Shown here piece by piece: positions 628 through 43,093 of a stretch of 46,302 nt of DNA (position 1 is its first letter; each line of letters opens with the position of its first letter). The notes under the pieces are model-generated. The model was given only the letters and a program-made list of their open reading frames with translations. It was not told the origin of the DNA and made no database searches. A program made the translations under genes and the position numbers. Origin of the DNA: an uncultured Bacteroidales bacterium (GTDB lineage: Bacteria; Bacteroidota; Bacteroidia; Bacteroidales; Paludibacteraceae); NCBI GenBank assembly GCA_902785605.1, contig CACZZL010000017.1, positions 1-46,302 on the forward strand. The letters run 5' to 3'.

Positions 628-1827
628 CTAATACAAGAATCCCACAACCCAAATCGGCAATTTATGCCCTATCGCTGTCTCCAGATTATCAGCCAGCACA
701 TACGAGTTCGGCACGTTCGCTATTTGACTGAAGTCCTTATCCTCACCTCCAACCTCTATCGTGTATTTCCCATCTATTTTAAAGTCGCCTTGCTGCTTAC
801 CGAACTCCACTACATGCTTCGCCGCTAACTGGTTCACAACAAACGTCTCCCTCGCCGTGCCGATCTTCACCGGTGTCGTCGCCCAAGCATACAACATGTT
901 CGGATTGTCGATGTATATTTTGTCCGGTTTCTGCATCCGTTTTGCATTCACTAAATCGCAGTACAGCAATTGTAGCAATTTCGCCTTACCCATATAGTTC
1001 AGATAAGCCACCACAGTTTCCCGTTTCAGGCCGCTCTGCACCGACAACTTCGAAATATCCACCTGATACGGCTCACTCGCGCATAGCATCGTCATCAACG
1101 CTTTGATCTTCCGCGTATTACCTATATCCACCTTGCATATCTTCGTCAGCTCGCTATCTATCGTGTGGTTCACCACTTGCTGAATCGCCAAATAATAATC
1201 CGTCTCGTTGTCTAAGTAATAAGGATAATAGCCATACTGCAAGTACTCATGGAACAGCGCCACCGGTCTGCCTTTCTTATTCATCTCCTGAATCAGCAGA
1301 GCCGGGTTTGTCAGTATGTCTTCCAACGGATATACCGGTATCTCAATTCCTTTGTAGAAATGCAGGAACTCCCGGAAACTCAAACCTTGGATATCATGGT
1401 TGATACACCGTCTGCTCAAGTCCGAATCACCTTCCATCATACTCAGCAGGCTGCTTCCACTAATCACTATCTTCATCGTTGGATAACTGTCGTAAATCTC
1501 TTTGATTTCCCGGCTCCAGTTGTCGTATTTATGGATCTCGTCGATGAATAGATGCTTACCACCACTCAAGTAGAACTGCTCGGCCAAGTCTAACAGGCTA
1601 TGCGTTGAGAAGTACGCATCGTCGCACGACACGTACAACACTTGTCTATCCATGTATGCATAGTGCTGCTTGATGTACTGCCGCATCATCGTAGATTTAC
1701 CGACACCTTTAGGACCGCGTATGGATAGTAACCTGGCTTCCCAATTGATACTCTGTGCCCATTTCCGTACAATCTCCATCGGTGTTATATCCCACCATCT
1801 GTCATGTTTTTTAATAAGTGTATCCAT
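628..1827 (-). CDS. AAA+ ATPase with C-terminal DUF4143 domain
   Basis: The 399-residue protein has Walker A GPKGVGKST (residues 38-46), Walker B LFIDEIH (93-99), a sensor-like VISGSS near 119, and a C-terminal half typical of DUF4143. The C-terminal half includes a winged-helix-like stretch (SVQSGLKRETVVAYLNYM) and an end resembling a restriction-nuclease fold (FKIDGKYTIEVGG). Members of this AAA_14/DUF4143 family are common in anaerobes and archaea. Their substrate is unknown, though NTP binding is well supported. The gene stands alone with its own promoter (1927-1960) and a roughly 90-nt leader carrying TGTCC/GGACA repeats. No terminator was seen after it. Assignment to the family is secure; function is not. 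Confidence 0.9.
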   Translation of the reverse strand: MDTLIKKHDRWWDITPMEIVRKWAQSINWEARLLSIRGPKGVGKSTMMRQYIKQHYAYMDRQVLYVSCDDAYFSTHSLLDLAEQFYLSGGKHLFIDEIHKYDNWSREIKEIYDSYPTMKIVISGSSLLSMMEGDSDLSRRCINHDIQGLSFREFLHFYKGIEIPVYPLEDILTNPALLIQEMNKKGRPVALFHEYLQYGYYPYYLDNETDYYLAIQQVVNHTIDSELTKICKVDIGNTRKIKALMTMLCASEPYQVDISKLSVQSGLKRETVVAYLNYMGKAKLLQLLYCDLVNAKRMQKPDKIYIDNPNMLYAWATTPVKIGTARETFVVNQLAAKHVVEFGKQQGDFKIDGKYTIEVGGEDKDFSQIANVPNSYVLADNLETAIGHKLPIWVVGFLY

Positions 1828-1960: not shown

Positions 1961-2152
1961 TTTAGTCGATTTTTTTTTGTAAACACACACTTTTTTCGAC
2001 CACGCACGTAAATTATTTGTATAATTTGTGCATTTCTGCTATTTCTTTATTGAAGGTAGATGGCTCCGGTTTGGTGAAACCGCGAAAAATTGCAGATTTC
2101 GCCGCCGCGCCCCCACAAATGAGGAAGATAACCATATAAAATATCGAAGATA
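1961..2152. other. Non-coding stretch with one hairpin
   Basis: No gene was seen. The only clear structure is a hairpin, CGGTTT (2067-2072) and AAACCG (2077-2082) with a GGTG loop. The rest is AT-rich sequence with a GC-rich patch near 2100. Confidence 0.5.
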
Positions 2153-2268
2153 CCCCCTAACAGCCATATAAAGGCGAATGGGCTAATGGTTAATGGCGAA
2201 GGAAACCACCGGAGGTACAAGCCGAAAAAACTAACAGCAGAAACATCGCCAAAATTTCCACCGGAGGT
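2153..2268 (-). repeat. Two-copy version of the ACCTCCGGTGGT repeat element
   Basis: The minus strand carries two copies of ACCTCCGGTGGT (complement at 2205-2216, and 2257-2268 with one mismatch), spaced 52 bp, followed by a 47-nt tail at 2153-2199. The tail is identical, in inverted orientation, to 41345-41391 beside the eight-copy array. The T-rich spacer (GCGATGTTTCTGCTGTTAG on the minus strand) is also shared. It is preceded on the same strand by a consensus promoter at 2283-2316, so it is probably transcribed leftwards. No plausible protein is encoded, since the repeat period is not a multiple of three. Confidence 0.85.
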
Positions 2269-2282
2269 ACAAGTTTTGGCTA

Positions 2283-2388: not shown

Positions 2389-2549
2389 TTTGCGGTCGAT
2401 AGCATCGACACGCGCATATAAAAGCATTAAATAAACACATATTAATCGCCTGGCTGGGCAGTGGATTAACGTGAAATCGTACATTGTACATTTGTAAATC
2501 GTAAATCGTAAATGATGTCTGTCGGCCAAGCCTAAAACAAACAAAATTA
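2389..2549 (+). ncRNA. Structured leader of the rplM operon, possible autoregulatory element
   Basis: Two hairpins are visible in the 160-nt leader. The first, at the very 5' end, has stem GTCGAT (2395-2400)/ATCGAC (2404-2409), extended by TGCG (2391-2394)/CGCA (2413-2416). The second has TTAATC (2442-2447)/GATTAA (2464-2469) with an inner GCC (2448-2450)/GGC (2457-2459). Three GTAAATC-type heptads follow at 2494-2514. Ribosomal-protein operons often use such leaders for feedback by the encoded protein. Binding by L13 here is an inference from position only. Confidence 0.5.
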
Positions 2550-39429: not shown

Positions 39430-39473
39430 ATGGGCTTTTGCTACTTTGGCACAATATTTGTTATGTACAGGGC

Positions 39474-40790
39474 GTGTGTCGAAAAGGGCTTATAGTAATC
39501 GGATTGTTATGCTTAGCGTTGCCGCTGTTGGCGCGGAAGCATAAGCCCGTCGTACCTGACTCGTTACAACGTCTGGAAATAGAGGTGAGCGGTATCAATT
39601 TTACCATGCAGCGCGTCGAAGGCGGATCGTTTATTATGGGTGCGACGCTAGATCAAACAGACAAGGACACCTACACCGACAAACCTGCTCACCTCGTTTT
39701 TCTTTCTCCTTATTATATTGCGACCATGGAAGTAACCGTACAACTATGGCGCGCCGTGATGCCGGAGCGGGATATTATCAACCCCAAAGGTTATCCAACT
39801 GTGCCTATTTCGTACGTGTCATGGTTTGATTGTCAGGAGTTTGTGCGTCGGTTGGATAGCATCACAGGTCTGCCATTTCGTTTACCTACCGAAGCCGAAT
39901 GGGAATATGCGGCACGAGGTGGAGCGAAGAGTAAAGCGTACCGTTTTGCAGGTGGGGATGAAGCGGATAGTGTTGGTTGGACGTACTCGTGTTCGGGCGA
40001 ATGGAAACACCCGGTGGGACGAAAGCTCCCGAACGAATTAGGATTGTACGACATGACCGGCAATGTGTCAGAATGGTGTCAAGATATCTATGGTCCATAT
40101 ACACTCAGCACGCAGCCTGATCCATGCGGCGCCGATACCGGCAGTTACCGTATCGTACGCGGCGGAAGTTATGATGAGTGTGTCGCTAACAGCCATCTAT
40201 CTGTGCGCCGTTGGTATCTGCCGGAGACAGCCACCGAGTATATCGGTTTTCGTGTGGCGCTGACACTTCCTAACGATCCTATGATGCAGGTACAGCAAGA
40301 AGAACCGCCGCTTACCCGTTCGGTGCGGATCAAGGGAAAGAAACTGCGGTTTGTTTATGTGCCGGCCGAAGATCCTTATTATATCTCTGAGGAAGTCGAG
40401 TGCGCACTATGGCGGAAGATTATGTCCAAAGACGCACCTAATCGGAGTAAAAGTGTGGCTCTTGGGATGAGTAAGTCTGACCGCACGCGTTTTGCTGAAT
40501 ATTGCAGCCGTATAGCCGACGAGGCTTTGTTAGTTGCTTCTGCCGAGCAGATCGTGCTGGCGGAGCAGCAACATATCATCGAACCCTTCCAACCGGACGT
40601 AAGCCATAAGCGCAAGAAGGAATCGACGCGTTCAATCCAGCGTAAACGCAAAGCCGTGGACAAACTGACACCGTGGACAGAATTGGTAGGTGTAAGTCTT
40701 CCTAAGCCAGACGATCCTATACTTCTGCAATTTAAAACCGCTGACGATGAGTCTCGCCCGCTGCGGTTAGTCATGTATGTTAGACCCTAA
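39474..40790 (+). CDS. Secreted SUMF1/FGE-sulfatase-domain protein
   Basis: The 438-residue protein has a signal peptide (GLIVIGLLCLALPLLA) followed by a formylglycine-generating-enzyme-like domain. Motifs are VEGGSFIMGA near 50, YYIATMEVTVQLWRAVM near 83, YVSWFDCQEFVRRL near 113, LPTEAEWEYAARGG near 135, GLYDMTGNVSEWCQD near 184 and RIVRGGSY. The last 170 residues contain what looks like a degenerate second copy (YYISEEVECALWRKIM). Most bacterial relatives, including GldK/PorK of the type IX system, are non-enzymatic, and I cannot tell which this is. The start is the GTG at 39474, which puts the signal peptide at the N-terminus; an in-frame TTG at 39438 is less likely. No lipobox. Confidence 0.82.
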   Translation: MCRKGLIVIGLLCLALPLLARKHKPVVPDSLQRLEIEVSGINFTMQRVEGGSFIMGATLDQTDKDTYTDKPAHLVFLSPYYIATMEVTVQLWRAVMPERDIINPKGYPTVPISYVSWFDCQEFVRRLDSITGLPFRLPTEAEWEYAARGGAKSKAYRFAGGDEADSVGWTYSCSGEWKHPVGRKLPNELGLYDMTGNVSEWCQDIYGPYTLSTQPDPCGADTGSYRIVRGGSYDECVANSHLSVRRWYLPETATEYIGFRVALTLPNDPMMQVQQEEPPLTRSVRIKGKKLRFVYVPAEDPYYISEEVECALWRKIMSKDAPNRSKSVALGMSKSDRTRFAEYCSRIADEALLVASAEQIVLAEQQHIIEPFQPDVSHKRKKESTRSIQRKRKAVDKLTPWTELVGVSLPKPDDPILLQFKTADDESRPLRLVMYVRP

Positions 40791-40958
40791 ATATTTTCTC
40801 TTTCTCCTACTTGTGTATGATGAAAGTAATCTTCCCAACTAGTGTCCTGTGCTCGCGATTTTTATGAGCGAGTATTTCCCCTTGCTATACTCCAAAATAC
40901 AAAAATCCTGATTTTCTATACCCAATTATTTGCATATTCAAAATTTTTTTGTACTTGT
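40791..40958. other. Non-coding gap before the repeat array
   Basis: AT-rich sequence without a gene. A weak hairpin CTCGC/GCGAG near 40853-40876 is the only structure noticed. GTACTTGTA just before the array resembles a damaged version of the promoter found before the left element at 2283. Confidence 0.4.
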
Positions 40959-41391
40959 ACCTCCGGTGGTAATTTTGGCGTTGTTTTGGCTGTTAGTTTT
41001 TTTCGACTTGTACCTCCGGTGGTGATTCTTGGCGATGTTTTGCTGTTAGTTTTTTTTCGACTTGTACCTCCGGTGGTATTTTTGGCGATGTTTTTGCTGT
41101 TAGTTCTTTTTGACTTCTACCTCCGGTGGTGTTTTTGGCGGTGTTTTGGCTGGTAGTTTTTTCGGCTTCTACCTCCGGTGGTGATTCTTGGCGATGTTTT
41201 GCTGTTATTTTTTTCGGCTTCTACCTCCGGTGGTAATTCTTTGCGATGTCTTGCTATTAGTTTTTTCGACTTCTACCTCCGGTGGTAATTTTTGGCGATG
41301 TTTTTGCTGTTAGTTTTTTCTGCTTGTACCTCCGGTGGTTTCCCTCGCCATTAACCATTAGCCCATTCGCCTTTATATGGCTGTTAGGGGG
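40959..41391 (+). repeat. Phased palindromic repeat array, 8 x ACCTCCGGTGGT, with 47-nt tail
   Basis: Exact copies of ACCTCCGGTGGT start at 40959, 41012, 41066, 41119, 41171, 41223, 41275 and 41328, giving spacings of 53, 54, 53, 52, 52, 52 and 53 bp. The core is an imperfect palindrome (ACC-n-CCGG-n-GGT). Spacers are T-rich and similar to each other (GGCGATGTTTT, GCTGTTAGTTTTTT, then CGACTTGT or CGGCTTCT). A 47-nt tail (41345-41391) and then a degenerate ACCTGCGGTG at 41395 follow. The period is not a multiple of three, so no repeat protein is encoded. Two units and the same tail occur inverted at 2153-2268. Confidence 0.95.
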
Positions 41392-41462
41392 TGTACCTGC
41401 GGTGTTTTCTTCGCTCTTTGGCGATTTTTTTTGCCTGCTCCCAAAAAAGGGTGGTTTTTTTG

Positions 41463-41493
41463 TTGCACAATTCAAAAAAAAGTTGTACCTTTG
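41463..41493 (+). promoter_or_regulatory. Promoter of the BspA-like gene
   Basis: TTG (41463-41465), 20 nt, TACCTTTG (41486-41493), 34 nt before the ATG at 41528. Confidence 0.82.
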
Positions 41494-41527
41494 CAGCCGC
41501 TAAGGTTTAACTGAAAAACAAGGAGTT

Positions 41528-43093
41528 ATGAAAAAACACATTCTTATTACATTGTTAGCTCTATGCTGTCAAATGACTTACGCAGAAAAAGCCATCATTG
41601 ACCACATCGTTTATGACTTGGATCTGAATAAACTAACAGCGACGGTGCTTAATTTTCAGACTAGTACTGAAGATGTATGTACAGTAACTATACCTTCAAC
41701 CGTAGAATATAAGCACGACACGTACACAGTTACTTCTTTGAGATACGACAAGTTAGATCAGAGCTATGAATTCTATTATAAGTATGATAAAGCAAGAATA
41801 AATATTGAACATCTATACCTCCCTAGCTCCCTGGAAGAAATTTATGCGGACGCCTTTACCGGAATGGCTCGACTAAAAGAATTGGTCATTCCTAAATCAG
41901 TAAAGCTTTTGGTCGGTATGCGATATCGTAATTGGGATTGGAGCGATTGTCCTATATTGGGGCGATATAATGAGGAAGAGTATCCGCGTTTGGAAAGTAT
42001 TACCGTGCTTGGCACTCCTGTGTGTCGGAGAATTGAGTTATGCGGATATTACTACCTGCATAAGAATTACTCCATGACAGAGTGTTTTTACTATGATCAA
42101 GGAGACCGAAAAAACAAAAGAGAGACTCTCGACCAAGAGAAATACAATTATGTATTAAAGGTTGCGAACACAATAGCCGGTATTACTTCTTTAGAGAATC
42201 CAAAGTCTTCCGTGTGTCCGAATCTTAAGGTCTTTTCCATGCCCGCTGCAGAAAAAGAGTCCCGACTTATCAAACAATGTTTCACCGAGGCGCGCACATT
42301 ATGTGATTCCTACAATACGAAATTGAAAGAACACCCCTATTTCGACGGATCCCAAATAACCTACAAACTGGTTTACAAAGATAGCCCATCTCAACTTCGA
42401 AAAGATTGCGACTCCATTAAAACCGCCATAACAAAGCAATTTAATGCGCTAACGAAGGGTCGAATGGAAAGCAATTTGCGCAAAAATAATTTGCCCAAAT
42501 ATCTTGAATTATACCTTGCGTCGCACTCCGAATTAAAGCCAAGTAGCGATAGTATCCGGATAGAATACCGCTGTGAAGATGCTCCTAAACAAGATAGTTT
42601 GGTATTATTATTCATTGAACACAATGTGCTGCCGTTGTCCTGTCGTGAAAGACAATATCAGCAATACAAAAATCTGTTTACTGATAAGGCTGAGTTTGAC
42701 GAGATCTATAACCATGAATCGGCGGGCTCATTCCTCGCTGAAATCAATTATCGTCTGGAAGTTCGCCCTTGGCTGGATAAGTTCATTGACCTTGTCAAAA
42801 CAAATCCTGATGCAAAATTACAAGGCATGAAAGCAGCAAAAGAAGGTAGCATCCCATACCGCCTCAATGCTTACATGCGTACGTTCCAGCAGAATTATAG
42901 TACACAGGCGGAACGTCAGCATCTCAATTTCTTCGAAAACCAAGCCTTAAATACCCTCTTTGAGTATAACGAAAAGATCAAGGAGGAATATGCTAAAAAC
43001 GGGCATTACTTTTCTAATCGAGAGGACTTCTTCAAGGCCTATATCGAGCCCGATTACAAAAACAGATTGAAGGAAATCAAGAAAAATAAGTAA
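41528..43093 (+). CDS. Secreted protein with BspA-like leucine-rich region
   Basis: The 521-residue protein has a signal peptide (HILITLLALCCQMTYA, cleavage after about residue 19). The N-terminal third resembles BspA/LRR_5 proteins: IDHIVYDLDLNKLTATV, then VTIPSTVEYKHDTYTVTSL, LYLPSSLEEIYADAFTGMARL and LVIPKSVKLL. The remaining 350 residues are charged and helical-looking without a recognisable domain (repeated Lys/Glu/Tyr, ending KEIKKNK), and there is no type IX C-terminal sorting motif. BspA relatives bind host or bacterial surface proteins, but that function is not shown here. The base composition is AT-richer than the housekeeping genes. It leads a probable three-gene unit with the next two genes (gaps 36 and 37 nt). 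Confidence 0.7.
   Translation: MKKHILITLLALCCQMTYAEKAIIDHIVYDLDLNKLTATVLNFQTSTEDVCTVTIPSTVEYKHDTYTVTSLRYDKLDQSYEFYYKYDKARINIEHLYLPSSLEEIYADAFTGMARLKELVIPKSVKLLVGMRYRNWDWSDCPILGRYNEEEYPRLESITVLGTPVCRRIELCGYYYLHKNYSMTECFYYDQGDRKNKRETLDQEKYNYVLKVANTIAGITSLENPKSSVCPNLKVFSMPAAEKESRLIKQCFTEARTLCDSYNTKLKEHPYFDGSQITYKLVYKDSPSQLRKDCDSIKTAITKQFNALTKGRMESNLRKNNLPKYLELYLASHSELKPSSDSIRIEYRCEDAPKQDSLVLLFIEHNVLPLSCRERQYQQYKNLFTDKAEFDEIYNHESAGSFLAEINYRLEVRPWLDKFIDLVKTNPDAKLQGMKAAKEGSIPYRLNAYMRTFQQNYSTQAERQHLNFFENQALNTLFEYNEKIKEEYAKNGHYFSNREDFFKAYIEPDYKNRLKEIKKNK

Follow-up and report, generated by a model that had tools for sequence, protein, structure and literature searches.

The array of eight ~53-bp units carried by the window (the whole stretch of 46,302 nucleotides analyzed here) is probably a minisatellite that grew locally from one copy of a non-coding repeat dispersed between genes; among the genomes searched, this repeat is restricted to one genus, and it resembles REP and MITE elements. 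As an array it is of an ordinary kind, a minisatellite inside a dispersed intergenic repeat; less ordinary, and seen genus-wide, are the tendency of a variable position in the motif to complement a second position and the repeated occurrence of the motif at joins of unrelated flanks. Judged from the sequences compared, the conserved feature is TACCTNCGGTGN', whose positions N and N' tend to complement each other and where unrelated flanks often meet, and this motif is a concrete handle on the building of intergenic mosaics in these bacteria. The explanations weighed below overlap, and the confidences attached to them need not total one.

The eight-copy array and its surroundings

Eight exact copies of ACCTCCGGTGGT at 40959-41339, as first reported in an earlier note on this DNA, were all recovered on the forward strand (each core 12 bp, starting at 40959, 41012, 41066, 41119, 41171, 41223, 41275 and 41328). 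They lie 52 to 54 bp apart, with core-to-core spacings of 53, 54, 53, 52, 52, 52 and 53 (mean 52.71 bp), and TRF delimited a repeat at 40944-41339 with a period of 53, 7.5 copies and 86% matches. When up to two mismatches were allowed, the window held 23 matches to ACCTCCGGTGGT against 2.73 expected, and none of 100 shuffles attained 23, which rules out chance for the array pattern. The core is an imperfect palindrome (ACC-T-CC/GG-T-GGT), again as claimed. Similarity extends between the cores in the first seven units (identity of neighbors 0.81-0.91, mean 0.866), and the units are ~85% alike overall. A 13-column run that is invariant in all eight units, TACCTCCGGTGGT, was equalled in 1 of 20,000 column shuffles; with the first seven, full units only it was equalled in 891 of 20,000. 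Taken by itself, then, the array shows a modest surplus of conservation in the core. The array sits in a 737-bp gap between genes ending at 40790 and starting at 41528. The features of the window referred to in the text are as follows.

2152..2275, minus strand: second copy of the repeat, two units (2189-2275) and tail
39438..40790, plus strand: upstream gene, FGE-sulfatase (SUMF1-like) domain protein
40944..41365, plus strand: array of eight ~53-bp units (TRF, pattern counts and unit alignment)
41340..41392, plus strand: terminal tail TTCCCTCGCCATTAACC...GCTGTTAGGGGGT, in place of the spacer of the last unit
41394..41405, plus strand: degenerate second core TACCTGCGGTGT
41435..41530, plus strand: promoter-like region, 5' UTR and ATG of the downstream gene, with a TACCTTTG box at 41486-41493
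41528..43093, plus strand: downstream gene with a product of 521 aa that weakly matches BspA-type leucine-rich repeats (E 0.0016, short of the Pfam cut-off)

The box before the downstream gene is of the form TAnnTTTG, a Bacteroidales promoter box. Copies of 41435-41525, 93-96% identical over 91 bp, occur on contigs C18, C11 and C19 of the same genome (G000). At these three places a cassette of 85-87 bp, holding promoter, 5' UTR and start codon, is flanked by inverted repeats of 27-28 nt that are 93-96% complementary (L018 6875-7015 on C11, L108 1121-1261 on C18 and L109 1404-1544 on C19); the window cassette (41435-41525, promoter/5' UTR) has a single arm, without the second inverted arm, and the cassette on C11 adjoins a four-copy array. 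Bounded by inverted repeats, the cassette looks like a candidate invertible promoter that holds the first codons of its gene. Tandem repeats of period 7 account for 13 of the 23 TRF rows in the window (e.g., at 326, 6399, 15448, 29550 and 45683), an unusual preference for heptamers.

Dispersed copies in the same genome

The earlier note placed the repeat at a single array; the array stands, and additional copies were found at 2189-2275 (minus strand) and elsewhere in the genome (2.08 Mb in 28 contigs, 83.5% complete). The exact 12-mer has 17 matches there, 13 of them forward and 4 reverse; the reversed control has 1. After exclusion of a match on C12 that lies within a 2,123-codon ORF and is coding, six loci are clear, with copy numbers of 8, 4, 2, 1, 1 and 1, and one more (C16) is degenerate. 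The four copies on C11 are spaced 52, 56 and 53 bp apart, and single copies lie on C2, C7 and C13. The second copy in the window, flanked by rplM (2550, plus strand) and an ORF at 628-1827 (minus strand), has one exact core (2205-2216) and one with a single mismatch (2257-2268). A sequence-only model of the unit, R1, found 18 matches in this genome at E < 1e-4, a count that is largely circular because the model was built from 17 of them.

The same ending recurs from locus to locus. A like tail follows the last unit at 2152-2204 of the window (minus strand) and on C7, and the degenerate second core is also present after the C7 unit and, as TACCTACGGTGT, after the C11 array. The last unit and tail together are 94-96% identical at three loci; the end of the main array shares 94% identity with C7:26898-27059 and 95% with window 2152-2274, which indicates that blocks were copied between loci. 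A search of related genomes for the core at a spacing of 50-55 bp, as proposed in the earlier note, was negative: two exact cores at a distance of 46-62 bp occur in none of the other 357 genomes of the family searched, so the copying is inferred within one genome.

The copies are non-coding by the measures used. No ORF of at least 60 codons covers the copies on C2, C7 and C13 or 2152-2275, and the ORFs over some units of C11 and the main array are short and mechanical (63-105 codons, stop included). In the main array such an ORF of 104 aa spans the first four cores only, and the unit lengths of 52-54 break the reading frame. In this genome the repeat shares with a MITE that carries an internal minisatellite (BrickBuilt-like) its multiple dispersed copies, intergenic position and internal tandem repeats of varying number.

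We envisage that the units would multiply through slippage or unequal recombination between neighbors and that copies would spread by a process like transposition, gene conversion or short-homology recombination; the core may be kept either because the spreading process recognizes it or because some protein binds it. Clear terminal inverted repeats were not found. When 40500-41900 was searched for inverted repeats, none enclosed the element, and inspection by eye yielded just one pair of 6 bp, ACCTCC/GGGGGT, with a single G-T mismatch. Neither a target-site duplication nor an empty site was seen by eye, the rplM upstream regions viewed (8 of 29 relatives) being too divergent to place an insertion. 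The Y1 REP-associated transposase family PF01797 had no match in this genome at its 83.5% completeness; among the other genomes of the genus searched, 36 in number, 15 had matches at E ≤ 0.001, the strongest in G083 (2.9e-25) and the rest at 2.9e-8 or weaker.

Spacing, phasing and a possible binding protein

The earlier description of the sites as exactly five helical turns apart holds in part: the array is near five turns (4.95-5.14 at 10.5 bp per turn; mean cos 0.91 for this array alone), but the true spacing is 52-54 bp. Even spacing as a helical scaffold did not survive comparison. The C11 array is spaced 52/56/53, an array of six copies in G131 has a 72-bp unit and spacings of 70-72, and other runs in the genus are spaced 17, 19, 22-24, 44 or 58 bp, among other values, ranging from 17 to 125 bp. 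Over 99 motif-to-motif distances under 150 bp in the genus, mean cos was -0.06 to 0.00 at 10.4-10.6 bp, without preference for whole turns, and phasing as a conserved trait was rejected on these statistics. The same 99 distances are non-uniform modulo 10.5 bp (R 0.21-0.24) and centered near a quarter turn, which may only reflect related copies. As the spacing is not kept among relatives, the near-five-turn spacing is best explained by the length of this one unit, which its duplicates share. The case warns against inferring helical design from the even spacing of sites in a single genome before relatives have been compared.

These distances also bear on the reading that a dimeric DNA-binding protein recognizes TACCTNCGGTGN' in intergenic DNA and that tandem copies strengthen its binding, as at a regulatory, nucleoid or insulation site. 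Such a protein would account for a core that is identical in all eight units of the window and in 4 of 4 on C11, for the near-five-turn spacing of the window array, and for the T at position -1, which all 38 sites beyond long ORFs carry compared with 39 of the 66 that ORFs cover. Of those 38 sites, 25 have a promoter-like box on their strand in the 500 bp downstream, compared with 14 of 38 in the mirrored position; however, the bias is unspecific, with a similar ratio in ORF-covered controls (16 vs. 7 of 66), so this excess does not help the reading. The variable spacing counts against it, no regulator gene was identified, and the site is not kept where orthologous positions could be compared. 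A match to rplM was obtained in 157 genus genomes, our own included, and among the 29 relatives examined (of the 156 others) none had a core within 450 bp upstream of rplM, compared with two in our own genome. The TAnnTTTGC box was present upstream of rplM in all 29. Likewise, the 1,937 bp upstream of the nearest homologue of the gene at 41528 (G135, 56% identity) held no core. With no core at either place, conserved regulation at rplM or before the G135 homologue was dropped, and we regard a protein-binding array as unlikely.

Transcription and RNA structure

In the rplM leader itself (window 2440-2545), pieces like TCGCCTGGCTGGGC...GTCTGTCGGCCAAGCC are kept in most of the relatives viewed (L174-L181), which suggests a ribosomal-protein leader RNA.

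If the array were transcribed as a repeat RNA, its palindromes could serve as hairpins, terminators or anti-Shine-Dalgarno decoys. Two neighboring cores can indeed pair (z -3.12 and -3.29), a trivial and direct consequence of the palindrome, and near rplM a promoter-like TACTTTTG is seen by eye just upstream of the two units there, on their strand. Against this, a representative single unit folds on either strand about as well as its shuffles (z -0.96 and -0.43), as does the last unit with its tail (z -0.50 and -0.77), and no Rfam family reached its gathering score anywhere in the window. The RNA role suggested earlier, in which the antisense strand would offer GGAGGT, found no backing: in none of the eight units does a start codon (ATG, GTG or TTG) lie in the 15 nt behind antisense GGAGGT. 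A ribosome-binding or anti-Shine-Dalgarno role was rejected on the missing start codons, and a structured RNA on the folding z-scores and Rfam; a repeat RNA is held to be highly improbable.

Distribution of the motif across the genus

Exact ACCTCCGGTGGT had 122 matches in 66 of 177 other genomes of the genus compared with 14 for the reversed control; in other genera of the family it had 32 matches in 27 of 180 genomes compared with 51 for the control. The exact 12-mer doubles as a Thr-Ser-Gly-Gly codon string, and many matches are merely coding. Among 104 distinct exact-core sites in the loci examined, 66 lie within ORFs of at least 150 codons and 38 outside, a filter that misassigns some sites in both directions, so the enrichment of the exact core in the genus is partly codon usage and inflated. 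The less coding-biased GTTTACCTNCGGTG gave 125 matches in 59 of 178 genus genomes compared with 8 for the reversed control, some of these looking coding, as do several of the 40 contexts viewed. It has no match in our own genome because the units there read CTTGT or CTTCT before ACC. Outside the genus, in a sample of the order, it had 23 matches in 22 of 312 genomes compared with 18 for the control. At E ≤ 0.1, R1 matched 59 of the 178 genomes of the genus, although chance alone would give about 18, and below 1e-4 it matched, beyond our own genome, only G042, G151, G131 and G054. On these sequence matches the enrichment of the core is confined to one genus among the genomes searched. Its general form there is TACCT-N-CGGTG-N' (that is, TACCTNCGGTGN'), which stands alone between genes or recurs in series with different spacings.

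According to the earlier note, the idea of a meaningful array would fall if relatives showed a random minisatellite with neither core nor spacing conserved. The outcome is divided: the core is conserved genus-wide, with a T at -1 in all 38 core sites outside long ORFs, but the even spacing is not kept in the relatives examined.

A tandem pattern search of genome contigs returned 17 stretches, all but three of them (L066, L073 and L075) at 67-73% GC, and BLAST of three units against all 17 gave matches of 15-20 nt only, the unit itself being absent. The stretches L072, L077 and L078 come from a MAG titled Klebsiella pneumoniae that has 67-70% GC there and its own clusters of a GGGCGGCCCACTACCTCCGGTGGTG-like repeat; its title is doubtful.

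By eye, intergenic regions of the genus often look like mosaics in which short hairpin words, for example CCGGCATTTAATGCCGG and AATGCGGGTGTAGCCCATGCGG, stand beside the core (L124-L131 and L267-L306), and some of these words seem to be preceded by CGTC, as in CGTC-tagged REPs. Dense strings of TACCTNCGGTGN' with recurring modules between them occur at L224 1290-1765 and 2370-2790 (G081:C85), and L162, L168, L169, L171 and L172 hold dense strings in relatives too.

Variable positions and junctions at the motif

The two variable positions of the motif tend to pair as complements in sets that are copies of a few families, with far fewer independent changes than the counts: N and N' were Watson-Crick complementary in 89 of 102 sites and G-T in 8 (37.8 Watson-Crick expected), at loci fetched mostly by exact core or R1 and with the exact core itself omitted; in a second set of 40, drawn from loci with T, A or G at N and holding no C-type sites, they were complementary in 28 and G-T in 2, compared with a shuffle mean of 16.4 and none of 20,000 shuffles attaining 28. 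Complementarity was stronger for a G at N than for T or A: a G was answered by C in 18 of 20 sites, a T by A in 8, C in 5, G in 1 and T in 1 of 15, and an A by T in 2 of 5.

Flanks change at the motif. Clusters of flanks were compared at 259 sites, which share the motif by construction and include many related copies as well as coding homologues that the 80% threshold separates. Of 131 clusters on the right, 31 join at least two left clusters, and 22 of 125 left clusters join at least two right ones. For 91 pairs of loci alike on the left, similarity is lost in the first 6 nt from the motif in 53, and the next three 6-nt bins hold 3 of 38, 2 of 35 and 10 of 33. Where they are alike on the right, it stops within 6 nt in 65 of 122 pairs and in the next 6 nt in 31 of 57. 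Many of the loci have a GCTGTTT leader in common in that second bin. Rates in the first bin were 31 of 58 (left) and 51 of 96 (right) without dense arrays, and 132 of 297 (left-similar) and 140 of 406 (right-similar) with all pairs kept.

Both patterns invite a reading in which the core serves for recombination or insertion: a dedicated enzyme would join or insert short modules at TACCTNCGGTGN', arrays being strings of modules. The frequent breaks of flank similarity at the motif, the complementary N and N' (28 of 40 and 89 of 102) and one 4.3-kb stretch of G081 (L224) with 23 motifs are what it would lead one to expect. But no enzyme was found, both N/N' sets contain related copies with few independent changes, the breaks could also come from any spread of modules with the motif at their edge or from short-homology recombination, and the spacers of the window array are uniform rather than shuffled. 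A joining site of this kind is possible but rather unlikely. Stated in full, TACCT-N-CGGTG-N' would be the joining site of an undescribed insertion or recombination system for short modules, confined to one genus (of small genomes and, judged from promoter boxes and gene content, probably Bacteroidales), that assembles intergenic DNA from interchangeable modules of ~20-70 bp, a proposal that we hold to be doubtful; were it true, the eight-copy array would have arisen by serial joining of one module to its own copies. The local expansion of a dispersed repeat stays the preferred account of the array.

Comparison with known systems

No description of the motif was found in the open-licence literature searched. 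With CRISPR the array shares a regularly spaced short repeat with partial dyad symmetry; unlike CRISPR, its repeat core is 12-13 bp and the same type of spacer recurs at several loci. The spacers of the array are ~85% identical to one another, so the conservation of spacers noted earlier is upheld, and mutually alike spacers rule CRISPR out.

Like the REP/BIME repeats of the GTAG/CGTC families (PMC3733652), the repeat is short, palindromic and extragenic, occurs singly or in clusters and is restricted to a lineage. In some genomes, REP/BIME repeats are mosaic with other repeats (PMC3733652). By the same source (PMC3733652), however, REPs have a GTAG/CGTC tag bounding their stem-loop, of which 17 of our own units, aligned and viewed by eye, have none. 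Their stem is 5-13 bp with a loop, compared with a 12-bp dyad with a mismatch and predicted core stems of 4-5 pairs here. The array is also head-to-tail, unlike REPs, and no RAYT gene was found in our own genome. A GTAG/CGTC REP with its RAYT was dropped as a candidate for want of tag, stem and PF01797 in our own genome.

The statement in the earlier note that no element of this form had been described was too strong. The BrickBuilt MITE and MITE464/PgRS of Porphyromonas gingivalis are comparable (PMC4596501): both are dispersed between genes and contain tandem repeats, with units of 23 and 41 nt, and the copy number of the BrickBuilt repeat ranges from 1 to 22.8 (PMC4596501). A promoter inside the units is reported for BrickBuilt. 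They differ in unit length (23 and 41 nt, compared with about 53 here), in number of loci (19 BrickBuilt copies in one strain, compared with six or seven here) and in the IS5-like terminal inverted repeats of BrickBuilt, both of which are present in 4 of its 19 copies (PMC4596501) and none of which was found here. By analogy of description rather than by sequence kinship, and with class membership not claimed, BrickBuilt/PgRS appear to be the closest described elements found (PMC4596501). Like them, the repeat described here is dispersed, intergenic and non-coding, with an internal tandem repeat of variable number and common flanking segments, and their limitation to one species and near relatives (P. 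gulae) is comparable to the lineage restriction seen here (PMC4596501).
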